Shown in pieces: positions 12,827 to 21,657 of a DNA stretch of 30,815 nt (the stretch's first letter is position 1; each line of letters starts with the position of its first letter). This DNA is from a virus: positions 1-30,815 of the IMG/VR virus record IMGVR_UViG_3300003690_000180; one strand, given 5' to 3'. A model generated the notes under the pieces. The model ran no database searches. It saw only the letters and a list, made by a program, of their open reading frames with translations, and was not told the DNA's origin. The translations under genes were made by a program, and so were the position numbers.

Positions 12827-14727
12827 GGCTTGTCAACTCGCCCATCCCAATCAGCAACACCATACACATTATCTAGTGAGTCCTCAACAACATAATGTGC
12901 CTCAAATTCTTCTGTAAGGGGTTCGCCTAGCCAACCTAGTCTTGTTTCTGGATTATATTCAATCCAATCTGTTTCTACTCCTTGCCATGTATTGCCTCCT
13001 AGTAGCGTCTGCCTAACAGAAAGAGGTGGTGGAGTCTTATCTGGATATTCATTACCTGCAGTATCTACCACAACTTCTTTACCATCTATTATTTTAACCT
13101 CATAATGCGGATACTTGAGCCCTGTTGGAAAAAAGAGACCTTCGCTTTCGAAACCATATGTATCTTCACCATAATCTTTGGTTTCTTGCCGTGCGCTTTG
13201 ATTGATGTTTATTATTCTACTGTTCCAATCTTCTGTGCTTTCATTTTCTTTTCTGGCAAATTTTATCGCATGACTAGATTCCGCTATAAAATGTTCCTCT
13301 AGTTTATGGTCGAATATAGTCATTCGTCCCCTTGGCGGTTCTAATCCTAAAGCACTAGGCTTCTGTGAAATCGACGCTCTGTTCTTATTGTCTTTCTTTC
13401 TAGTCCTTCCCATTTCACCTTCTTTGCGAATTTCAATTTCTAATTTTCCACCTGCTACCCAAAACTCTTCTAGCTTTTTCTTTTTATATGCTGAAATATT
13501 AGGTAGCCTACTTAGAAAACTATCAAATGATTGTTGAGCTCTTTCTTCGTCATCAATATTTGATATATATGTAGATGTTTTGTCTGGCTCTGCTGTAGAC
13601 AGAAACATTTTGTCATAATCCGTAGCGCCCATCTCATCATAGTCTCCTGACAGCATACTCTCCTGTATATTGCCACCAGTTGTTGTTGGCAATGTTTGAT
13701 TTTTTCTTGGGCGAATGTTCTTACGGACTAAATCGCCCTCTTGCATCTTCTGCGCAGAAAATAAAGCTTCTAAACCTAGCTTTATCTTTTGAAATAATGT
13801 TTTTTTCTTTTTTGGCGATTCATCTTGAAAATCAAAAAAATCAGGATTATTCAATAACCATCTAATTGATGATTCAATATCGAGGTGCGCCTCGCGTTCA
13901 CCAGTCACATCTGGTAGTTGTTTACCGTAAACTCCCTCTCCGTACTTAAAAATGCTAGTGGGTCCATACTTTCTATACTCCTTTCCGAATTTCCTATGTA
14001 GAGCATCTTTTTCTTCAGGAGTCAAGCCTGCAAACTGTATAGCATGAGATAATTCAGATATTACTGAATCAGCCTTTTGTCGCTCTGAAAAATTCTTACG
14101 CGCCTTTGTTACTGAGCGGTAGTCTTCGCTGGTTGGGTCGAGGTTAAGCCCAAATTCTTTTTTTTCGGTGTCTGTAAATAAATGTGGGAATGTTTCTATG
14201 TTATCTAAACGCCTATCTACCTTATTCTTCCCGGTTTCAGTTAAATAGTCTTTAACCATTAAAGCGTTCGGTCCAACTTCATATAAAGCCCCAGCGGGTC
14301 TATCTTGTCCTGTTAGGCTTCTAAATACTGCTGGGTCATTGACTTCATATATAGCTGGCTTATTAGCTGCCCTATATATAGCTAATGCTGCCTTATTAAA
14401 AGACTTCTTATCCCTATCGCTAGGAGGCTCTTTCCAATACGCTGGATAACCTGAATATACAGTACTCTCAGGTAAAAGAGACGCTTTAGATATAATATCT
14501 AAAAATCTCTGTTTTTGCCATTCTGGGTCTGGAACACCCTTTATTTTACCTGTCCAATCCCTATCTCTAGGCAACTTTTTATATTTCGCTATATAATCGT
14601 CATGCTTTTTCTGCGCTTCGGTCTTCTTTACTTCACCGCCTTCTTTATATTTATTCTCCCAACGCTTAGCCATGGCAGGCTCATTCATATGCATCCACCT
14701 ACGCTGTTTATCTGACTGAAATGGCAT
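12823..14727 (-). CDS. Large virion-associated protein with two ExxHA...EAHxxxE modules
   Basis: A 634-residue protein that starts with a basic tag (MPFQSDKQRRWMHMNEPAMA, then KRWENKY and GGEV) often seen on uncharacterised phage virion proteins. Two modules share a motif pair: ISELSHA (E225, H228) with EAHLDIE (H281, E285), and IAESSHA (E483, H486) with EAHYVVE (H611, E615). The ExxH plus HxxxE pattern could form a metal site like a degenerate zincin peptidase, but no classical HExxH is present. The linker (300-470) is basic and low in structure. The gene precedes the terminase genes and starts 3 bp after the preceding stop without a good SD, so it is probably coupled. It may be an internal, ejected or maturation protein; this is inference. 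Confidence 0.6.
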   Translation of the reverse strand: MPFQSDKQRRWMHMNEPAMAKRWENKYKEGGEVKKTEAQKKHDDYIAKYKKLPRDRDWTGKIKGVPDPEWQKQRFLDIISKASLLPESTVYSGYPAYWKEPPSDRDKKSFNKAALAIYRAANKPAIYEVNDPAVFRSLTGQDRPAGALYEVGPNALMVKDYLTETGKNKVDRRLDNIETFPHLFTDTEKKEFGLNLDPTSEDYRSVTKARKNFSERQKADSVISELSHAIQFAGLTPEEKDALHRKFGKEYRKYGPTSIFKYGEGVYGKQLPDVTGEREAHLDIESSIRWLLNNPDFFDFQDESPKKKKTLFQKIKLGLEALFSAQKMQEGDLVRKNIRPRKNQTLPTTTGGNIQESMLSGDYDEMGATDYDKMFLSTAEPDKTSTYISNIDDEERAQQSFDSFLSRLPNISAYKKKKLEEFWVAGGKLEIEIRKEGEMGRTRKKDNKNRASISQKPSALGLEPPRGRMTIFDHKLEEHFIAESSHAIKFARKENESTEDWNSRIININQSARQETKDYGEDTYGFESEGLFFPTGLKYPHYEVKIIDGKEVVVDTAGNEYPDKTPPPLSVRQTLLGGNTWQGVETDWIEYNPETRLGWLGEPLTEEFEAHYVVEDSLDNVYGVADWDGRVDKP

Positions 14728-14730
14728 TTA

Positions 14731-15051
14731 TTAACTAGACTCTGGTGAAATAAGTTGTATTACTATCGCGTCATGCTCCTTTTGCCATCTGCGTACAGTG
14801 TCTTTTATATGTGAAGGCATCTCTTTACCATCATACCTGTCTTCCATCTTCCATATCATCTCCTGTAAATAATCAGCCTTGTCACGTAAAATCTTGTTCT
14901 CTAGCCTCTCGTCTACAGCTTTTATATCTTTTTTAATGTCCTGAACTTGAGATTGTTTCGCGTACCTGCTGTCTATAGCTAAAACAGAACCCAGCACTGT
15001 AGAGATACCAATTGCAAAGGCTATATACGTATTAACCTTATTCAAATGCAT
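14731..15051 (-). CDS. Small membrane-anchored coiled-coil protein
   Basis: A 106-residue protein with one N-terminal membrane segment (residues about 8-27, YIAFAIGISTVLGSVLAI) followed by a charged helical region (DIKKDIKAVDERLENKILRD) likely to be a coiled coil. It is the first gene of the leftward late operon, with only a short leader from the AT-rich candidate promoter and no SD. Such proteins occur among spanin/holin-like or virion accessory proteins; nothing here decides between these. Confidence 0.6.
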   Translation of the reverse strand: MHLNKVNTYIAFAIGISTVLGSVLAIDSRYAKQSQVQDIKKDIKAVDERLENKILRDKADYLQEMIWKMEDRYDGKEMPSHIKDTVRRWQKEHDAIVIQLISPESS

Positions 15052-15078
15052 ATGCTAAAATTAGTTAAAAATATATAA

Positions 15079-15108
15079 TCTATACAATACTATATATATA
15101 CTATTGAA
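15079..15108 (-). promoter_or_regulatory. Candidate late promoter, leftward
   Basis: On the minus strand a TATAGA -10-like box (15084-15079) lies in an AT-only stretch, with a weak TTCAAT -35-like box 18 nt upstream (15108-15103). A start near 15072 would leave a leader of about 20 nt before the first late gene. The -35 match is poor (3 of 6), so a phage-modified or alternative polymerase is possible. Confidence 0.35.
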
Positions 15109-15138
15109 ATAGAAGTTGAAGATGAAGAGCCATTGAAT

Positions 15139-15455
15139 CGCATTGCGTTCGCATTGGCTTACCTATACTCAAAAATAGTGCGTAATTTGTCCGATACGTT
15201 GCGTAATGGACACCGCCCCCCTCGCGAATCGCGTTCGGTTTCGGTTTTTCGTTGAGTGCGTGATTCACTTTGCCTACGCGCGGAGTACGCGCGGGCGCAG
15301 TGCGCGCTTGGGTGCGCGCGGTGAACGCACTTGGGCAAGCGCATGCGTGCGCTGTGCGTGCGCATAGGCAAGCGCATGCGAGAGCCTATGCCGTCGGTAT
15401 AGCTCAAGTATCGCTTGCACTAGCTCAAGTCATGCCGTATATTCAGGTCATGCCG
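15139..15455. repeat. Divergent control region with phased direct repeats
   Basis: No convincing gene lies between 15052 and 15519. The stretch holds pairs of direct repeats spaced mostly by whole helical turns: CGCATTG at 15139 and 15150 (11 bp), TGCGTAAT at 15179 and 15200 (21 bp), TACGCGCGG at 15275 and 15286 (11 bp), GGCAAGCGCATGCG at 15334 and 15367 (33 bp), TAGCTCAAGT at 15400 and 15421 (21 bp), and GTCATGCCG at 15429 and 15447 (18 bp). The core 15270-15395 is very GC-rich with alternating CG/TG steps, flanked by an AT-rich island at 15060-15110. This arrangement fits protein binding sites at a divergent promoter or an origin; which one is not shown by the sequence. Confidence 0.6.
15415..15443 (+). 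promoter_or_regulatory. Candidate early promoter, rightward
   Basis: TTGCAC (15415-15420), a 17-nt spacer and TATATT (15438-15443, 5 of 6 matches to the -10 consensus). The second TAGCTCAAGT repeat fills the spacer and GTCATGCCG copies overlap the -10 and lie just downstream, which would suit operators. A transcript from about 15450 would carry a short leader before the first rightward gene. Confidence 0.4.
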
Positions 15456-15488
15456 ACGGTGAGCCGTTGGCTCGACACCCTCACACAT

Positions 15489-15512
15489 GCTCGCGGGGAG
15501 CGAGCGAAGGAG
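15489..15512 (+). promoter_or_regulatory. Hairpin immediately followed by a strong SD
   Basis: GCTCGC (15489-15494) pairs with GCGAGC (15500-15505) around a GGGGA loop, and the next bases are GAAGGAG, the SD of the gene starting at 15520. The same layout (GC-rich hairpin abutting GAAGGAG) recurs before the next two genes. Confidence 0.6.
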
Positions 15513-15519
15513 TAACATC

Positions 15520-15795
15520 ATGCAACACAGCACACCAACACCAACAACACCGAACGCGTACTTCATAGACGCATACGAACTGCAAATCGTCGACGCGTAC
15601 ATAGACGCGTGGCTTAACATCGACGAAGTTATCGACGCTGACATAGCCCTCGCGTACGAGGTCTACGTCGAAGACTTGCGAATCGACCTTGCAGAACGCG
15701 CTTATAATAGCGCGGACGAAGCTGAGCTAACTACGCAAGCGCAGACGCACATGGATTCCTACGGAATCGACTTCAGTGAGTTTGATACTCCCTGA
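15520..15795 (+). CDS. Small highly acidic early protein
   Basis: The ATG at 15520 follows AAGGAG at 15507-15512 with a good spacing, giving 91 residues. An in-frame ATG at 15487 lies before the hairpin and is rejected. After a Thr/Pro-rich start the protein carries about 20 Asp/Glu, only two Arg and no Lys, mostly helical (AYELQIVDAYIDAWLNIDEV). No family is recognised. A strongly acidic small protein as the first early gene is typical of DNA-mimic or host-takeover factors, but there is no motif to prove this. GC content is clearly higher than in the late genes. Confidence 0.75.
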   Translation: MQHSTPTPTTPNAYFIDAYELQIVDAYIDAWLNIDEVIDADIALAYEVYVEDLRIDLAERAYNSADEAELTTQAQTHMDSYGIDFSEFDTP

Positions 15796-15820
15796 ACGCG
15801 CGTAATATAAACGCTAGCGA

Positions 15821-15854
15821 AGGGTAGCGGGCGGTTCGACTCCCCTGCTACCCT
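15821..15854 (+). other. tRNA minihelix-like hairpin
   Basis: A 7-bp stem (GGGTAGC 15822-15828 with GCTACCC 15847-15853) is followed inward by a 5-position stem with one mismatch and a 7-nt loop TTCGACT, i.e. the acceptor plus T-arm geometry of a tRNA without D and anticodon arms. No CCA follows. It may be a tRNA-derived remnant, a tRNA-like regulatory hairpin, or chance. It sits in the 194-bp gap between the first two rightward genes. Confidence 0.4.
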
Positions 15855-15926
15855 CTATCCTCGACACGAATAGAGGAACAGTGCGCAGATACACAGGAAA
15901 AGAATGCATGCATTTTATGCATTCTT
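15852..15926 (+). other. Further hairpins in the 15796-15989 gap
   Basis: Two more hairpins follow. CCTCTAT (15852-15858) pairs with ATAGAGG (15870-15876), partly competing with the minihelix-like hairpin. AAGAATGCAT (15900-15909) pairs perfectly with ATGCATTCTT (15917-15926) over a 7-nt loop. With the hairpin at 15963 the gap is nearly all structured RNA; no open frame is supported. Confidence 0.55.
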
Positions 15927-15962
15927 CAGGGCGCAGAGACAACACCAACCAAACAACACCAA

Positions 15963-15983
15963 GCGCTATAATAGCGCGAAGGA
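15963..15983 (+). promoter_or_regulatory. Palindrome GCGCTATAATAGCGC plus GAAGGAG leader
   Basis: A 15-bp inverted repeat (15963-15977) abuts GAAGGAG, the SD of the gene at 15990. It contains a perfect TATAAT, but transcription from it would start inside the SD and no -35 is present, so a leader hairpin or operator is more likely. TATAATAGCGC also occurs at 15703 and 16427 inside coding sequence. Confidence 0.55.
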
Positions 15984-15989
15984 GAAACC

Positions 15990-16511
15990 ATGTTCAAAAC
16001 ACTCAACTACGGTGAAACCGTAGAGTATGAAAGCGTCATCAGCAACAGCAAAGGCTGTTTTGTGCGGTTTGACGGAAGCACCGAGTTCATCTGTAGCCTC
16101 GGCAACAGAGAAGCAATCAATCTCTTGAGCTATGCTCAAGTTCAATTAGCTTGTGACCTCCTATCCACTTCGTGGATAGAGACTCACGAAGATAACCACC
16201 TCTGTCACGACATGGAGAATTATTACATAGTCGACGGCTATGAGTTCTTCGCTGAAGAGTGCGTAATGATGCCACAATTCAACGCGGAGTGCGGACAGTG
16301 GCGCGTAGCTCTAATAAACACCCTCGGGCAGAGAATCTATCTCGACGAGGATAGCCAAGAGTTTCACTTCATTTCGAGCCCTGACCTACAAGTAATCGAA
16401 GATTACTGGGACTGTGAAGGGAAAACTATAATAGCGCACGAAGATTTAATGAGCTGTCGGTTCATTGATTACTTCGGCGAACTAATCAACACTCAAACAA
16501 ACAGCGCTTAA
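15990..16511 (+). CDS. Unknown acidic early protein
   Basis: A 173-residue protein with SD GAAGGAG 7 nt before ATG 15990. It is acidic overall, with several Cys (CFVRF, FICSLG, CDLLS, CHDME, ECVMM, AECGQW, DCEGK) and an aspartate/glutamate-rich second half (YLDEDSQEFHF). No membrane segment, signal peptide or catalytic signature is seen. Its stop codon lies inside the palindrome that precedes the next gene's SD, so the two are probably co-translated. It belongs to the first early cluster and may act on the host, which is inferred from position. Confidence 0.75.
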   Translation: MFKTLNYGETVEYESVISNSKGCFVRFDGSTEFICSLGNREAINLLSYAQVQLACDLLSTSWIETHEDNHLCHDMENYYIVDGYEFFAEECVMMPQFNAECGQWRVALINTLGQRIYLDEDSQEFHFISSPDLQVIEDYWDCEGKTIIAHEDLMSCRFIDYFGELINTQTNSA

Positions 16512-16526
16512 ATAAGCGCGAAGGAG
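16504..16526 (+). promoter_or_regulatory. Palindrome GCGCTTAAATAAGCGC plus GAAGGAG leader
   Basis: A 16-bp inverted repeat (16504-16519) overlaps the stop codon of the previous gene and abuts GAAGGAG (16520-16526). It is the third copy of the hairpin-SD layout and marks the start region of a gene whose frame is interrupted just after the ATG. Confidence 0.6.
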
Positions 16527-16537
16527 AGCGAACGACT

Positions 16538-16830
16538 ATGACGAGTACGTTAAAGTACAGACACGCATAAGGGTAATCGCAAGCGGTGGAAGTGTAACTA
16601 TCCCGCAAACCGAGGAAACCTTCGGCGTTAATGAAGAAGGAAATGGCGAACATTACACTATAACTCATGCGCTAGCTGACTATCTAAAGGCGTGCTCATA
16701 CGAAGAAGCTGACGACGAACTCAATCGCGGTGCTTCGTGGGTGCGCGGTGCAGTGTACGAAGCCATCAAATGTATCAATTTCTTTGAAATTGCAGAGAAT
16801 TTGATTGAGATGGAAGCCGACGACGACTGA
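16538..16830 (+). CDS. Small acidic early protein, start frame interrupted (-1 shift)
   Basis: The strong SD at 16520-16526 points to ATG 16538, but that frame stops after 10 codons. The -1 frame is open to TGA 16830 and clearly coding (VQTRIRVIASGGSVTIPQ, HALADYLKACSYEEADDEL, WVRGAVYEAIKCINFFEI), ending in EMEADDD. It has no ATG, GTG or TTG of its own near the start. One extra base near 16541 or in the AAA at 16553-16556 would give an intact protein of about 97 aa with 19 acidic residues. An assembly indel is the simplest explanation; a pseudogene or frameshifted expression are alternatives. The family is unknown. Confidence 0.6.
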
Positions 16831-16838
16831 ACGACGAA

Positions 16839-16888
16839 CCTTAATATACTCCTTTCCCATACGTAAGTATGGAAAGGAGTATTTAAGG
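16839..16888 (+). promoter_or_regulatory. Long SD-sequestering hairpin with GNRA-type loop
   Basis: About 22 base pairs with two one-base bulges (T16845, C16856) close a GTAA loop: CCTTAA, ATACTCCTTT and CCATAC pair with GTATGG, AAAGGAGTAT and TTAAGG. The AAGG at its 3' foot is the SD of the membrane protein at 16896, and a second AAAGGAG is buried in the stem. It lacks a U-tract, so translational control or RNA stability is more likely than termination. Confidence 0.7.
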
Positions 16889-16895
16889 AATATTT

Positions 16896-17024
16896 ATGAG
16901 GAATCACAAACCGACAAAATTTGAGCAAACACTTGACATTCTGTCAAGCAACACGTTCGCGAAGTGGATTATAGTCTCGTCAGTACTATATCTGATGTGG
17001 CAAATGTTCATTCGTGGACACTAA
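16896..17024 (+). CDS. 42-residue single-span membrane protein
   Basis: ATG 16896 follows AAGGAA with 5-7 nt spacing and the frame runs to TAA 17024. The N terminus is basic (MRNHKPTKFEQ), and residues about 24-38 (WIIVSSVLYLMWQMF) form a membrane segment near the C terminus, ending in RGH. The SD lies at the foot of the long hairpin upstream. It could be a small holin, antiholin or membrane-targeted takeover factor; none is proven. Confidence 0.6.
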   Translation: MRNHKPTKFEQTLDILSSNTFAKWIIVSSVLYLMWQMFIRGH

Positions 17025-17052
17025 CACCTAAACCGACAACGTAGGAGGAAAA

Positions 17053-18339
17053 ATGAACTACGACAAATGGTCAACCAAAAAACTGCGCGGTGAGTGCATA
17101 TACATCTGTAAACGCGGAGGAGTTCGTAGCGGATGGATTAAGAACGCCCGCAAGAACGAATGCCTATTGTTTCTTAATGACGGCAAGAAGTCAGCTAGAC
17201 TCGACGACAGGTGCAAATGCTACTATATGGAGCATGCTAGCCAGACTAACGGCTGTGGATTAGAGAACATTACGTACATGTTCTCACATTCGTCATCGGC
17301 TGAAGACAGTCGAAAGGCAAAAACACCCAAACTGAAGTCTAGTGCCGACGGTCTAGAGGGAATCCTCATAAATGCCGTAATGGAGACCATTAGCCGAGAC
17401 GTAAATGATACGATTAGCTCGGCTGTGGAAGATGCGCACAGTGCGCTCATGCAGACGTTCGAAAACTCATCTGCCGACATTCTATCCGAGGTAGAGAAGA
17501 AAATAAGCGAACTGCGCAAACCGCTACATATCACCGTCGGGGATAAGCCGACTGTAAAACTGGACGGAGCAATAAATCACCCATTACTGCCCGATGTAAT
17601 CGAGGCTTTACATTATCGTGATAAAGTGCTCCTCGTAGGTAAGGCGGGTACTGGCAAGAGCACGATGATTAAACAAGCGTCGTCGGCACTTGGCTATGAC
17701 ACTTCTGGCAAAACACACGAATATGTCTACATGTGTGGCACAGCGGGAGTGACTGAAGGGCACTTAACAGGTCGAATGCTGTTCAATGGCGAGTATCGTA
17801 ACGGACTAGCTGTTCCGCCGTTCGAACGTGGCGGTGTGCTATGCGCTGACGAGTTCGACGGATTCGACGAGAATTGCGCACTGGTATTCAATGCCATGCT
17901 CGATGACCAAGGGGTATTAGCTATCCCTAATAGACCTGACAATCCTGTGGCGATTCGACATGAAAAGTTCAAGTTCGCAGGGTGCGCAAACACACACTGT
18001 GACGGTGCGGACTTCTCATACTCGGGGAGAAATCAGCTAGACAGAGCAACGCTCGACAGATTCGGTGACGTAGTTATCGAAGTGGATTATGACAAAGCTC
18101 TGGAACGCGCATTAATAGGCGAGTTCAGCGATACTGCTCACATGCTCTGGAGTCTGCGCAAGAACGTAGAGAGAGAGCGAATTGAACGAATAGTGTCGAC
18201 GAGACTATTCAAATCTGCGCAAACATGGCGCAAACTAGGCAAATCTAATGCATGGTTTCTCGAGAGAATCACTACTTCTTGGACTGCCGAAGAAAAAGAC
18301 AAAGTCGGATACAACGACATTGTATCGGAGGTCAAATGA
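17053..18339 (+). CDS. MoxR/CobS-like AAA+ ATPase
   Basis: A 428-residue ATPase with SD AGGAGG before ATG 17053. Residues 5-40 look like a SAP-type nucleic-acid-binding element (STKKLRGECI ... KNECLLFL), and a helical linker spans 100-155. The AAA+ domain has Walker A GKAGTGKST (K202), a pore-type EGHLTGRM loop, Walker B GGVLCADEFDG (D266, E267), sensor 1 FAGCANTH and an arginine-finger region ATLDRF. This is the CobS/MoxR clade pattern, whose members usually remodel a partner together with a VWA-domain protein. The downstream gene overlaps it (ATGA) and looks like that partner. The target in the phage cycle is unknown. Confidence 0.88.
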   Translation: MNYDKWSTKKLRGECIYICKRGGVRSGWIKNARKNECLLFLNDGKKSARLDDRCKCYYMEHASQTNGCGLENITYMFSHSSSAEDSRKAKTPKLKSSADGLEGILINAVMETISRDVNDTISSAVEDAHSALMQTFENSSADILSEVEKKISELRKPLHITVGDKPTVKLDGAINHPLLPDVIEALHYRDKVLLVGKAGTGKSTMIKQASSALGYDTSGKTHEYVYMCGTAGVTEGHLTGRMLFNGEYRNGLAVPPFERGGVLCADEFDGFDENCALVFNAMLDDQGVLAIPNRPDNPVAIRHEKFKFAGCANTHCDGADFSYSGRNQLDRATLDRFGDVVIEVDYDKALERALIGEFSDTAHMLWSLRKNVERERIERIVSTRLFKSAQTWRKLGKSNAWFLERITTSWTAEEKDKVGYNDIVSEVK

Positions 18340-19229
18340 CTCCCGTAACGAACACAATCACAGACATGTACACAGACCACGTTTTGAGAGACGGCACAAA
18401 GGTTGGCATTGTCAGATTTAAAGACATGCGCGCCGAGCTACGTGCCGTAGAGGAACTAAACCTCTACTGCGATGTCGCGGACATACAAGGTTCGTGGACG
18501 TATGGCAGTGACTTCCCTACTCGAGAAGACACCGTTGGCGCTCTGAAATCTGGACGAATAGTGCAAGGTGTATTGAAGGAATACGACAGACAGCGAGCAT
18601 TAATTGAGAAAGCTGTCGGAATTTCGAAGTTTCTCGGAAAAGGGCTCTCATGTAAACGCAAGCGCGTGCCCGCTGACGAAGGTGACGAGTTATCCATGTC
18701 CCGAATAATGTCGGGAAGTGATACATACTGGATGCGCACCGAGAGGAACAGCAAACGCAAGAACGTCCGCATAGGTGTGAACTTCTCACTTGCTTGTGGG
18801 AATCAAGACAAGGACTTTGCAAGGCTCGGCGGTACATTGGCACTGCTTTGTGATATATGCTACAAACTCGGGTTCAGCGTGGAAGCGCATGGCGTAGGCG
18901 TGACTGACTACGAAGGCTCGAGAGGGTATGGCTACATTGTCACTGACACGATAATCAAAAAGCCCGCAGAGAGAATGGATATTCAGCGCATACTGTCGGT
19001 AATGCATAAAGGACTACACCGCGATATATGGTTTGGGCTGAAGGACAAGCTCTTCGATATAAACAAAAGTTCGTACGGACGACAGACGCAAACGAGTGAC
19101 GAACTGCGCGACCTCATAGGATTGGACTATGTAATCGAGCAACATAGCATCCGACGAGACGAACAACTCACTGGATTCTTCGAGGACATGATACACAGGC
19201 TCGTAGACAAGAAGGAGTACCTGCGATGA
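18336..19229 (+). CDS. DUF7192-like, VWA-like partner of the AAA+ ATPase
   Basis: Start at ATG 18336 (297 aa) overlaps the ATPase stop as ATGA and has GGAGG 6 nt upstream; an in-frame start at 18252 would lie inside the ATPase gene. The central part reads DEGDELSMSRIMSGSDTYWM, then a strand NVRIGVNFSLACG followed by a long helix (LGGTLALLCDICYKLGFSVE). This is the pattern I associate with DUF7192 phage proteins and resembles a VWA core that has lost the canonical DxSxS. The C-terminal 80 residues are helical and charged. Tight coupling to a MoxR-like ATPase supports a two-component chaperone. Fold and name are inferred from pattern. Confidence 0.7.
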   Translation: MTPVTNTITDMYTDHVLRDGTKVGIVRFKDMRAELRAVEELNLYCDVADIQGSWTYGSDFPTREDTVGALKSGRIVQGVLKEYDRQRALIEKAVGISKFLGKGLSCKRKRVPADEGDELSMSRIMSGSDTYWMRTERNSKRKNVRIGVNFSLACGNQDKDFARLGGTLALLCDICYKLGFSVEAHGVGVTDYEGSRGYGYIVTDTIIKKPAERMDIQRILSVMHKGLHRDIWFGLKDKLFDINKSSYGRQTQTSDELRDLIGLDYVIEQHSIRRDEQLTGFFEDMIHRLVDKKEYLR

Positions 19230-19378
19230 AAAATCATTCAAGGCGCGACAGGGCTCGGAAAAAGCGTGCGCAGATACGCAAAGACATCGCAAGAGAAAGC
19301 GACAACGTCTGGCGAGGTTCTGCCGAGTACATAGAACAGTACCAACAACAGAGGGCAAAGGTAAACGAGCCACATTAA
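19226..19378 (+). CDS. 50-residue basic protein coupled to the ATPase operon
   Basis: ATG 19226 overlaps the previous stop (ATGA) and has GAAGGAG 8 nt upstream; the frame ends at TAA 19378. The protein begins MKNHSRRDRARKKRAQIRKD, very rich in Arg/Lys, and ends with a Gln-rich helix (EYIEQYQQQR). It is probably helical and nucleic-acid binding. It follows the AAA+/VWA-like pair in one transcript and precedes a hairpin, so it may be the last gene of that unit. Confidence 0.65.
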   Translation: MKNHSRRDRARKKRAQIRKDIARESDNVWRGSAEYIEQYQQQRAKVNEPH

Positions 19379-19395
19379 CACAATAAAGACTCAAC

Positions 19396-19428
19396 GGTAA
19401 TCCCCCAACACGAAGTGTGGGGATTACC
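19396..19428 (+). terminator. Strong hairpin after the AAA+/VWA-like operon
   Basis: GGTAATCCCC (19396-19405) pairs with GGGGATTACC (19419-19428); an inner ACAC/GTGT pair closes a GAA loop, and an outer GACTCA/TGAGTC extends the base. No run of T follows, so it may be an attenuator, RNA-processing or Rho-linked site rather than an intrinsic terminator. Confidence 0.5.
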
Positions 19429-19468
19429 TTGTGAGTCACTTAAACAATCGCTAGAAAGGAGCACAGTA

Positions 19469-20071
19469 ATGACATCAGAAAAGAAAAAGTTCAACTTTAA
19501 GGCACTGCAAGTCGGTATCAACGACGAGCGCGATGGTGTGTCTGCAAGACTAGGCGCGAATATGGTCGAAATGCCCGACAGATTCGTAAGATTTGCGGAA
19601 AAATCGCAAAAACGCGGTGGTTTTGACGGTAAGCACACCCAAGTGGATGAGGCACTCGTCTGCGTCTACCTAGTGGAAGCGTTCGAAAGGATATTTGACC
19701 GTTCGACCGAGGCGTTGAATTACGTCACCAATCTAATAGCCAACACTATTAGTCTGTGTGATGATAGAGAACAGCGCGTCAAAATGGCGACGGCATTTAT
19801 CACTCACATGAGCGAGCACTTTGAATCGTGGAACGCAGATTCAATCAACACGTTTGCGCACCAAACAAATATCATCGACAAGGATAAGCACAAGTTCGTG
19901 TTAGAATGGGAAGACGACGATAATACGTCTGGCACTATGAGCATCATAGATAGGAAGTCTGGCGAAATTATCATGCATGGCATTTTCGGTAAATTGAGCG
20001 AGGGCGAAGGAAATGATGCGCTCGCGAAGGCAATCGCCGAAGGTTTCTCGGGAAATCGAGGTGACGCGTGA
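19469..20071 (+). CDS. Unknown soluble protein, 200 aa
   Basis: The ATG at 19469 has AAAGGAG 6-7 nt upstream; an in-frame start at 19415 lies in the hairpin and is rejected. The basic N terminus (MTSEKKKFNFKALQVG) is followed by a helical middle (VDEALVCVYLVEAFERIFD, VTNLIANTISL) and a C-terminal beta-hairpin (HKFVLEWEDD / GTMSIIDRKSGEIIM) with an acidic tail. No catalytic residues stand out. It overlaps the next gene by 4 nt and is part of the rightward early transcript. The family is not recognised. Confidence 0.75.
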   Translation: MTSEKKKFNFKALQVGINDERDGVSARLGANMVEMPDRFVRFAEKSQKRGGFDGKHTQVDEALVCVYLVEAFERIFDRSTEALNYVTNLIANTISLCDDREQRVKMATAFITHMSEHFESWNADSINTFAHQTNIIDKDKHKFVLEWEDDDNTSGTMSIIDRKSGEIIMHGIFGKLSEGEGNDALAKAIAEGFSGNRGDA

Positions 20072-20340
20072 CCATTAAGACTAACGACATTAAAAAAGGC
20101 ATGCGCATTCAGTCTAAACAGCTCGGCACTCTAACGTCGGGAATAATGATGGACAACTTGAAAGGCAACACGCGCCTTGTCGACGTTAAGGGTTCTGAAA
20201 TAGGAATGTTTGACGAAATTGGCTCGGTATACTCACACGACATCATGCTTGTGGAAGTGGATGGCACGTGGGTTGCTGTTGAGCACACCGATGCGCAGAA
20301 ACAACTGGAAATCGACGCTAACGATTTCTTCAACCAATAA
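20068..20340 (+). CDS. Unknown small beta-rich protein (GTG start)
   Basis: A 90-residue protein starting at GTG 20068, overlapping the previous stop as GTGA with GAGGTGA as SD. The N-terminal IKKGMRIQSKQLGTLTSGIM and GNTRLVDVKGSEIGM segments look like a small SH3/KOW-type barrel, such as occurs in nucleic-acid-associated phage proteins. The C terminus is acidic and helical. Function is unknown. It lies directly upstream of the PC4-like gene. Confidence 0.7.
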   Translation: MTIKTNDIKKGMRIQSKQLGTLTSGIMMDNLKGNTRLVDVKGSEIGMFDEIGSVYSHDIMLVEVDGTWVAVEHTDAQKQLEIDANDFFNQ

Positions 20341-20352
20341 CCATAAGGATAA

Positions 20353-20583
20353 ATGTACACAATGGTATACAAGGAAATAGCGAAAACTGATAAGACTAAA
20401 ATTCTTATTAGTAAAGACACCGTAAATGGTGTCGAGTTCGGGCAGATACGCATTTGGACTAAAGTCAATGGCGATTTGATACCCACTAAAAAAGGTGTAT
20501 CATTCGCACTGGCTCTAATCCCCGATATACAGCTTGCGCTTGAGCACATGGCGCAAGATGACGGTGATTCAGGAGTCGAATAA
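20353..20583 (+). CDS. PC4-like ssDNA-binding protein
   Basis: A 76-residue protein whose core (VNGVEFGQIRIWTKVNGDLI then PTKKGVSFALALIPDIQLAL) matches the PC4/p15 fold: a four-strand sheet with IRIW, the basic PTKKGVS turn and a C-terminal helix. PC4-type proteins dimerise and bind single-stranded DNA, acting in transcription or DNA protection; phage members are known (for example in T5). The gene is last before the intrinsic terminator. The SD is weak (AAGGA, 20345-20349). An acidic tail (DDGDSGVE) follows the helix. Assignment is by motif only. Confidence 0.68.
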   Translation: MYTMVYKEIAKTDKTKILISKDTVNGVEFGQIRIWTKVNGDLIPTKKGVSFALALIPDIQLALEHMAQDDGDSGVE

Positions 20584-20611
20584 GGCTTTAGCCGAGTGCG
20601 CGTAACGAAAG

Positions 20612-20636
20612 CGGGGCAGAATAACTGCCCCGTTTT
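20612..20636 (+). terminator. Intrinsic terminator
   Basis: CGGGGCAG (20612-20619) and CTGCCCCG (20625-20632) form a perfect 8-bp stem around AATAA, followed by TTTT (20633-20636). It closes the transcript that includes the ATPase operon and the PC4-like gene. Confidence 0.9.
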
Positions 20637-20752
20637 CTCAACACCCAAACGCGTAATAAGGAGTACCCACCATTGAGGAGTTGGTGGGCATTATGCTATT
20701 TTGGACTATCAAATTACTATTAATCAACACATTAACGCAAGAGGTAAATGCA

Positions 20753-21052
20753 GTGGAAAAACAAGATGTAGTAAGAATACAGGTTAAACTGTTACCCGAC
20801 GAGTATCAATCTTTTTTGAATATTCTCGAGGACGCTAGCGCGGAAAATTTGCTCACATTATTCGAGGTGCGCAAAATATATCCCACTAGCCTGTGGGGCA
20901 AAGCGACGCGGTGGCTAGAAGGCGAAATTGCAAGTGGCATTGACGAAGACGATTGTCAAACTGTCGACGATTACGTAGTGCTAGGAAGGAAAGAGTGCGC
21001 AGAAAATCTACTTGAATACATAGAAAGGGAGACAAATAATGAAACTGTATGA
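20753..21052 (+). CDS. Unknown small protein (GTG start likely)
   Basis: The frame is open from 20660 on. The best start is GTG 20753 with GAGGT 7 nt upstream (99 aa). ATG 20693 would add a hydrophobic stretch (MLFWTIKLLLINTL) and has a poorly spaced GAGGAG inside the loop of a small CCCACC/GGTGGG hairpin (20666-20688). The protein is acidic and helical (LPDEYQSFLNILEDA, CAENLLEYIERE), with a conserved-looking RWLEGEIASGIDEDD middle. Family unknown. It is the first gene after the terminator, so a separate promoter is expected, though none is clear between 20640 and 20750. Confidence 0.62.
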   Translation: MEKQDVVRIQVKLLPDEYQSFLNILEDASAENLLTLFEVRKIYPTSLWGKATRWLEGEIASGIDEDDCQTVDDYVVLGRKECAENLLEYIERETNNETV

Positions 21053-21269
21053 ACAAATATCAGACGAAACCTATTCTTGCGGAATATGTTCGCATAAAGT
21101 AAAAAAAGGCGAATACCATCATAATCACGACAATTTTATTAATGGTAGGCTGTGGGGTTGGGATGCATTAAAAAAGTGGCGACCTTACTGGAAAAAGACA
21201 CGTACGCATAAAATGCAACATATGAAAGAGAATCCTAAAACTAAAGAAGAAAGATATGAGGACAGATAA
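21039..21269 (+). CDS. Small Cys/His protein, possible zinc-binding
   Basis: A 76-residue protein with SD AAGGGAG before ATG 21039, overlapping the previous gene by 14 nt. Residues 14-30 contain CGICSHKVKKGEYHHNHDNF, a CxxC followed by His residues that could make one zinc site resembling an HNH or zinc-ribbon start, but no second CxxC or complete HNH motif exists. The rest is strongly basic with Trp (GRLWGWDALKKWRPYWKK). Possibly a nucleic-acid-binding protein. Confidence 0.65.
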   Translation: MKLYEQISDETYSCGICSHKVKKGEYHHNHDNFINGRLWGWDALKKWRPYWKKTRTHKMQHMKENPKTKEERYEDR

Positions 21270-21272
21270 ATA

Positions 21273-21527
21273 ATGGCTAAAAACAACATCACAATAGAAC
21301 AACTTGCAAGAGAATTTCTTGTTGTTAAAGAGGCTGTCGTTGTCAATAGACAGCAAAATGTAAACAATTTGAAAAAGATTGTCGGCATTAAAGAGGATAT
21401 GCTTAAATTAATTAAGGCGTTAGATGTGTGTGCGCAAGCAATTATAAACACAAACGCGAAACTACGATTAGATAAGAAATATGCTAATAATGGCAAGGAG
21501 AAAAGTGTTCGAAAAACCAAAAAATAA
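21273..21527 (+). CDS. Small helical protein
   Basis: An 84-residue protein starting 3 bp after the previous stop. It is almost wholly helical with heptad-like spacing (VVKEAVVVNRQQNVNNLKKI, LKLIKALDVCAQAII) and ends in a Lys-rich tail. It may form a coiled coil. No strong SD is seen, so coupling to the gene before is likely. The last 38 nt overlap the next small gene; a one-base shift in the AAA near 21477-21479 would instead end it at TAATAATG, but this is only a possibility. Confidence 0.6.
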   Translation: MAKNNITIEQLAREFLVVKEAVVVNRQQNVNNLKKIVGIKEDMLKLIKALDVCAQAIINTNAKLRLDKKYANNGKEKSVRKTKK

Positions 21528-21657
21528 ACGCAAGCGCTACATAAATAAACGTAGGTGGTGCAAGAAATTGTTACGTGACGCGCGTGATGGGGATAAGTCC
21601 GCCAAAGACTGCCTACAAAAGTATTTTAAAATAAAGGTAACTATCCATGACTGTTAA
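21490..21657 (+). CDS. 55-residue very basic protein
   Basis: ATG 21490 to TAA 21657. The product starts MARRKVFEKPKNKRKRYINK and continues with RRWCKKLLRDARDGDKSAKD and a short C-terminal helix/strand with two Cys. Its Arg/Lys content suggests nucleic-acid binding. It overlaps the preceding gene and has no good SD, so it is likely read by coupling. The assignment as a real gene rests on composition and continuous coding potential. Confidence 0.5.
   Translation: MARRKVFEKPKNKRKRYINKRRWCKKLLRDARDGDKSAKDCLQKYFKIKVTIHDC

Follow-up and report, generated by a model that had tools for sequence, protein, structure and literature searches.

The window, by which we mean the whole 30,815-base stretch of DNA analysed here, is a virus record in which terminase, portal and major head protein are encoded leftward, and a rightward early block runs from about 15.5 kb, after a GC-rich divergent intergenic region. 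The GC content is about 45–50% over most of the rightward block (approximately 15050–21600), compared with about 33–47% in most leftward modules, and both GC and AT skew are reversed there relative to the leftward modules. The divergent region carries a 17-nt imperfect palindrome, CTATGCCGTCGGTATAG (15386–15402; this and all following window features are given on the plus strand), and an exact scan found it in 11 viral contigs, several of which were syntenic relatives. The early block opens with gene 1 (15520–15795), which encodes an acidic protein of 91 aa, and gene 2 (15990–16511), which encodes an acidic protein of 173 aa, followed by an acidic open frame of 96 codons (16540–16830). A long near-perfect hairpin (16846–16882) then stands upstream of the gene for a 42-aa probable membrane protein (16896–17024) and of the AAA gene, which belongs to a pair of an AAA_5 ATPase and a DUF7192 protein (17053–19229) that is kept across the phage group. 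Comparable long hairpins of unrelated sequence were seen by eye before the AAA gene at three other loci (L076 near 11370, L077 near 11900 and L078 near 4800), and short proteins of a kind similar to the 42-aa one are encoded directly before it in L094, L100 and L114.

The sequence GCGAAGGAG was found in the window at 15504, 15976 and 16518 only, and these three copies compare with a mean of 0.20 expected, a number that none of 100 shuffles reached. Every copy is abutted by an inverted repeat. The first-pass annotation of this DNA had described inverted repeats that directly abut GAAGGAG, and this was borne out three times: GCTCGC-ggggA-GCGAGC (15489–15505) abuts GAAGGAG at 15506 before gene 1, GCGCTATAATAGCGC (15963–15977) abuts it at 15978 before gene 2 and holds a −10-like TATAAT, and GCGCTTAAATAAGCGC (16504–16519), which overlaps the end of gene 2, abuts it at 16520. 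A sequence said to recur three times in about 730 bp was counted correctly, as TATAATAGCGC has exactly 3 copies in 735 bp (15703, 15967 and 16427; 0.02 expected), but two of the three copies lie inside genes 1 and 2, outside the leaders. The description of three genes behind hairpin leaders holds for genes 1 and 2 and fails for the third. The ATG at 16538, where gene 3 had been placed, opens only 10 codons (MTSTLKYRHA) before a stop, and the acidic frame 16540–16830 follows a stop at 16513 and does not open with an ATG, GTG or TTG in frame. This makes gene 3 a frame that is broken, frameshifted or mis-assembled. A sequencing indel, a pseudogene or a frameshift is possible for this acidic frame (16513–16830), which stands behind a good leader.

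The gene 1 leader of the window, taken alone, exceeded its shuffles in stability by only a little (z −1.85, with 4 of 100 shuffles as stable), and the strength of the case lies in the comparison with relatives. A sigma-70 scan of the window region gave a number of sites no higher than in shuffles. The leader pattern GCGCTN{3,10}AGCGCGAAGGAG was also tried on viral contigs and rejected, because its 54 stretches were chance-like and had no similarity to the window's genes.

The DNA of 14500–18000 had no match among 50,697 GenBank phage records, a protein search of GenBank phages with gene 2 gave no match, and gene 2 or the AAA protein of the window, used as single-sequence queries against viral contigs, gave no relative. 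Searches with alignments gave 49 loci for the AAA protein encoded downstream of the early genes (the aligned relatives being 44, 42 and 33% identical) and 45 loci for the terminase. The terminases found were mostly 70–76% identical to that of the window over the best segment, three were 84–85% identical and one (24%) lay outside, and from these identities we placed the phages in the same group as the window. A portal query gave contigs (L003, L006 and L007) with portal and terminase 71–85% identical to the window's, and the contigs of L006 and L007 extend into the divergent region and show a small acidic gene 1 after a hairpin and Shine-Dalgarno.

The survey of leaders took in each ATG that has a Shine-Dalgarno-like motif and opens a frame of 35 codons or more, false starts included, and only identical 40-nt leaders were merged, so that homologous leaders are not independent in the counts. 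Perfect hairpins that have four or more GC pairs and end within 4 nt of the Shine-Dalgarno-like motif were present at 20 of 186 early-region starts, against 0.45 expected from shuffles, downstream of the AAA gene at 5 of 242 starts (0.85 expected) and at none of 119 leftward, structural-side starts (0.05 expected). Looking at gene 1 only, 22 of the 28 distinct leaders have a perfect stem of 5 bp or more whose end lies no more than 20 nt from the ATG; the leaders of L095, L099, L100 and L140 have longer imperfect stems, the hairpin of L097 is 25 nt away and that of L071 has 4 bp. The median z of the 28 leaders against shuffles was −3.4. It was weaker than −2 in seven of them (L085, L092, L097, L006, L007, L071 and the window), and the leaders of the window, L006 and L007 were individually non-significant (z −1.85, −0.47 and −0.64). 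In gene 1 leaders the ribosome-binding site after the hairpin is free. The arms vary by lineage (CGCGAAGG, ACGCGTAGG, GCAGG, TCTCGC, GCGAAC, GCTCGC, TCGCCC, ACGCG) yet remain complementary. At L078, hairpins of the form GCCGNC...GNCGGC or CTCGTC...GACGAG recur in front of four early genes, ahead of a purine-rich Shine-Dalgarno-like motif, which, judged by sequence, is the hairpin habit of the window in other letters. Gene 2 of the relatives is mostly without a leader hairpin, and few starts other than those of gene 1 were among the hairpin leaders. CCTTCGCGAAGG overlaps the Shine-Dalgarno in 14 of the 28 leaders (CTTCGCGAAGGAG; counted by eye), so an alternative, weak hairpin that masks the Shine-Dalgarno could be conceived. 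The hairpin before the gene 1 Shine-Dalgarno is thus conserved in related phages, where it recurs with arms that are changed and still complementary, so the lack of conservation named as a ground for refuting the first-pass reading was not seen, and the first-pass suggestion that a common leader means shared control is supported both by the 28 distinct gene 1 leaders and by the early-region enrichment.

Shared control could also act at the DNA level. The leader repeats would then serve the early genes as operators or promoter parts to which a repressor or a phage factor binds, with the RNA hairpins being incidental. The best promoter-like match in 10 of the 28 leaders has its −10-like box just upstream of the repeat, ending 31–40 nt before the ATG, and a transcript from such a box would therefore start inside the 5′ arm, which keeps this explanation alive. 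One of the ten, L110, has a perfect promoter, TTGACA-N16-TATAAT (12 of 12 consensus letters; L110:5090–5137 and upstream), that ends 40 nt before the gene 1 ATG. The TATAAT within the gene 2 repeat of the window, the threefold recurrence of TATAATAGCGC, and arms CGCGAAGG/CCTTCGCG that are kept as sequence in many loci point the same way. However, the repeats stay close to the Shine-Dalgarno, although an operator has no need of such proximity, the leader arms change together between lineages, and similar repeats precede genes inside the operon in L078 and L116–L119; the promoter scores, moreover, stand without a control. We therefore regard operators as unlikely, though they are the strongest competitor to a role of the hairpins in RNA.

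The proteins behind these leaders are acidic. Gene 1 of the window has 20 D/E and 2 K/R in its 91 residues (net charge −18), as first reported, and acidity is a trait of the family, because the mean net charge was about −13 over 31 distinct gene 1 products (30 relatives, which were chosen for carrying the RNA element described below, and the window). Gene 1 products share patterns in subsets, such as ALxxYEExFR and EEAWLxAxDG, and the family comes first in the early operon of the relatives. The window's gene 1 matches the family profile weakly (hhalign P 0.025), and its assignment as a divergent member, which is probable to us, rests mainly on position and leader. Gene 2 has 30 D/E and 8 K/R in 173 residues and matches ten relatives with an hhalign P of 2.7e-5, and the alignment shows an invariant DME and conserved W, N and GQ positions in the relatives. 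Genes 1 and 2 thus appear to belong to unnamed acidic early protein families of related uncultured phages, and neither had a meaningful match to any Pfam, PHROG or PADLOC family. Acidic early proteins can be DNA mimics that block restriction or other host defence, and the strong acidity of the gene 1 products, the first place of gene 1 in the early operon and fast divergence would fit such a role. However, there was no family hit that would tie the two proteins to anti-restriction mimics such as ArdA and Ocr, and the AlphaFold models (pLDDT 60.8 with two helices for gene 1 and pLDDT 50.3 for gene 2, both of low confidence) are too poor for the charge layout to be judged. The first-pass idea of DNA mimicry is thus without positive evidence, and we regard it as improbable.

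Between genes 1 and 2, 39 related contigs carry a covarying tRNA-like RNA, which the first-pass annotation of 15489–16830 had missed. The element was searched by a strict T-arm with a matching acceptor stem and by a pattern scan, which gave 36 loci on 36 contigs. A model of it also matched in L094 and L097, neither of which was used to build it (48.8 and 31 bits), and in the contig of L103 (76 bits). The plan of the element is a 7-bp acceptor stem, a linker of mostly 5–8 nt with GG, a 7-bp middle arm and a 5-bp T-arm. The T-arm is perfect with the loop TTCGANT, the loop of the middle arm is mostly 3 nt (TTT in 12 of 20 rows), and the GG was present in the linker of 21 of 21 distinct elements. 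There is no D-stem, no anticodon loop and no CCA, so the element is not a canonical tRNA with a D-arm cloverleaf and a 7-nt anticodon loop; ARAGORN called no tRNA at the phage elements of the group and no tRNA gene in the window. In an alignment of 20 sequences, 96.3% of the cells pair and changes on both sides are seen in 12 of 19 pairs; none of 500 shuffles reached any of the covariation measures. Because pairing of T-arm and acceptor was the basis on which the sequences were selected, these two helices lean towards structure. The middle arm lay outside this selection, and 90.6% of its cells pair and two of its pairs change on both sides, so that covariation is present in all three stems. 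The middle arm of the L076 element is a stem with CCGTCGG, which is similar to CTATGCCGTCGGTATAG.

The place and orientation of the element are fixed. It follows the gene 1 stop at a distance of 17–47 nt in 30 relatives, and the reading frame directly before it encodes a small acidic protein in the carrying loci. When the source contigs of the terminase search were scanned, 25 of 43 carried it, one copy each, on the strand opposite to the terminase, which is the early strand; weak matches on the other strand at the same places arise because the stems are palindromic. We inspected 14 terminase loci without the element: three show gene 1 and end before the place where the element is expected, and gene 1 was not found in the other eleven. 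Some AAA relatives (for example L082, L116 and L128, whose contigs were checked) reach the early region yet lack the element. The bases after the acceptor stem were TCTA in 12, TCAA in 9, CTAG in 1 and GACT in 1 of the 23 distinct elements with flanks, and CCA in 0 of 23, which means that recognition by bacterial RNase P would be weakened. With one pattern for the T-arm, cellular genomes gave 22 matches on 21 stretches and no element of this type. ARAGORN called an ordinary tRNA at 18 of the 22, and the other four (L197, L205, L214 and one of two in L208) were set aside because they look like truncated copies of the same tRNA-Arg(CCT).

The window itself has a reduced form. An acceptor/T-arm minihelix with the T-loop UUCGACU lies at 15821–15854, 26 nt after the gene 1 stop, and the middle arm and the GG are lost, so that only acceptor and T-arm remain. 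It is more stable than all of 200 shuffles (z −4.5) and is the most stable of the 52 TTCGANN sites in the window (−23.1 kcal/mol, with the next at −13.0 kcal/mol). None of 1351 TTCGANN sites in 54 unrelated viral loci (498,855 bases) was as stable, and one reached −19.9 kcal/mol. The full model R1 did not find the reduced element in the window, and Rfam reported no tRNA type at the minihelix. From its place, loop and stem we call it a putative reduced form of the relatives' element. A second strong hairpin, AAGAATGCAT...ATGCATTCTT (15900–15926), also lies between genes 1 and 2.

A trivial origin of the element, as a decaying tRNA gene or the remnant of an attachment site without function, is very improbable. 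Its T-arm and the 3′ half of its acceptor do resemble ordinary tRNA genes, and tRNA fragments derived from integration are described as common (PMC9897764), but decay is hard to square with the covariation of its three stems, with a single copy per genome whose place and strand do not vary, and with the canonical T-loop and GG that it keeps. At the gathering score, Rfam gave nothing in ten loci scanned. With lowered thresholds the best match of the L095 element was mascRNA-menRNA (RF01684), with tRNA-Sec next; at 25.0 bits and E 0.0025 it falls short of the cut-off of 42.5, so the element is not a member of that family by gathering score, and the match does not imply common descent. The plan of a mascRNA-like mimic, namely acceptor and T-arm, elbow GG, reduced D region, long anticodon-like stem and compact loop, is nevertheless present in the relatives.

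According to PMC11693755, mascRNA is cut from animal MALAT1 by RNase P and RNase Z, keeps the acceptor, the T-arm and two D-loop guanines with a small D region, and has a long middle stem, the compact loop of which tends towards UUU. The phage element shares with mascRNA and menRNA, which form at the 3′ ends of MALAT1 and MEN-beta, the acceptor stem, the T-arm, the two elbow guanines, the shrunken D region, an arm at the anticodon position with a longer stem and a compact, often UUU, loop, and a place at the 3′ side of another transcript. Unlike them, it lies between two protein genes of DNA phages and has no D-stem at all, and its processing is our proposal. The tRNA-like domain of tmRNA has an acceptor and a T-arm with a D-loop that lacks a stem. 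The phage element likewise has acceptor and T-arm without a D-stem, but it has no mRNA-like domain or tag, and its middle arm is closed by a triloop. Known substrates of RNase P include the phage M3 RNA, C4 RNA and the T4 gene 32 mRNA (PMC11143913). These substrates, and a polycistronic mRNA that RNase P also cuts, resemble our case in having a tRNA-like or stem structure within a polycistronic or phage transcript; the element described here, in contrast, imitates the elbow, is conserved across a phage group and is known from sequence. We found no account of such a tRNA-like element in phages in the literature searched, which left most subscription papers and preprints outside its reach.

The leaders also have known counterparts. 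Stem-loops are among the features said to protect bacterial mRNAs (PMC7509114). In the RiboJ insulator, the hairpin is described as leaving the ribosome-binding site exposed and perhaps stabilising the message (PMC6206723). Like ompA-type 5′ stabilising stem-loops and RiboJ, the phage leaders have a stem-loop immediately before an exposed ribosome-binding site. Unlike them, the phage hairpin is natural, repeated and lineage-specific, with a putative stabilising effect. L076 has a candidate type II hammerhead (RF02276; L076:12002–12072, minus strand, in L076/L085) with intact core letters, which scores 26.8 bits (E 0.01), below the gathering score of 37, and lies directly upstream of a hairpin and Shine-Dalgarno leader, an arrangement like that of RiboJ. 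The type II hammerhead is absent from the window. Type II hammerheads with a pseudoknot from loop I to the tail have been described (PMC3088659). Three hammerhead look-alikes upstream of hairpin leaders (L116:4680–4760, L117 near 2465 and L121 near 881, with GUCGAAA and CUGANGA) were rejected, as they have an extra base beside the core and Rfam did not report them at E up to 1.

Our preferred reading, which we hold tentatively and at somewhat less than an even chance, is that the hairpins both insulate and protect each ribosome-binding site and that the tRNA mimic is where the early transcript is cut, downstream of gene 1, by RNase P and RNase Z of the host. The interval opens the rightward early operon of an uncultured tailed phage, and each leader would form an RNA stem-loop directly upstream of the Shine-Dalgarno, which would keep the ribosome-binding site single-stranded and give cover to the 5′ end of the message. 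At the tRNA-like element the transcript would be cut by RNase P of the host, probably together with RNase Z, so that the gene 1 message is parted from what follows, and the downstream hairpins would then cap the freed messages. The sequences themselves show the leaders and their recurrence, the tRNA-like structure with its covariation, and its fixed place and orientation, while the transcription start, the cleavage and the effects on stability and translation are inferred. We propose cutting by these enzymes because the phage element shares the mascRNA plan, RNase P cuts phage RNAs, and the elbow is what such enzymes grip.

The element might instead be freed as a small, stable RNA with a function in trans, for example by acting as a decoy for factors of the host or of a defence system that recognise the tRNA elbow and acceptor. 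It keeps exactly this surface (T-arm, GG and acceptor) and drops the anticodon loop, the elbow is described as gripped by RNase P, RNase Z, the CCA-adding enzyme and others (PMC4810234), and there is one element per genome, in the early region. Its fixed place 17–47 nt after gene 1 speaks for a role in cis, however, and the window carries the reduced form only, so that we think a decoy rather improbable. Cutting and action in trans could also be combined: DNA phages would have evolved, independently of animals, a mascRNA-like mimic that RNase P and RNase Z release and that acts in trans, its excision also setting the ends of the gene 1 message. The released RNA would then be stable and act on host or defence factors that bind tRNA. 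We give this wider scenario a similarly low chance.

Returning to cutting in cis as the preferred reading, early genes behind RNA hairpins and a tRNA-shaped RNA beside gene 1, in a little-known group of phages, suggest that host enzymes which normally cut tRNAs are put to use by the phage in trimming its messages. The original observation on the leaders is right in essence and conserved, and the neighbouring tRNA mimic is the surprising part. The early region would show a natural operon of hairpin-capped ribosome-binding sites, such as synthetic biologists build with RiboJ, and the 21 distinct elements, together with the minimal minihelix of the window, would make a compact natural set of substrates for the requirements of RNase P and RNase Z. 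Should the element be processed in this way, DNA phages would have arrived by convergence at one trick with the long noncoding RNAs of animals, in which a tRNA mimic of elbow plus acceptor, without a full D-arm, puts RNase P and RNase Z to use in ending a message.
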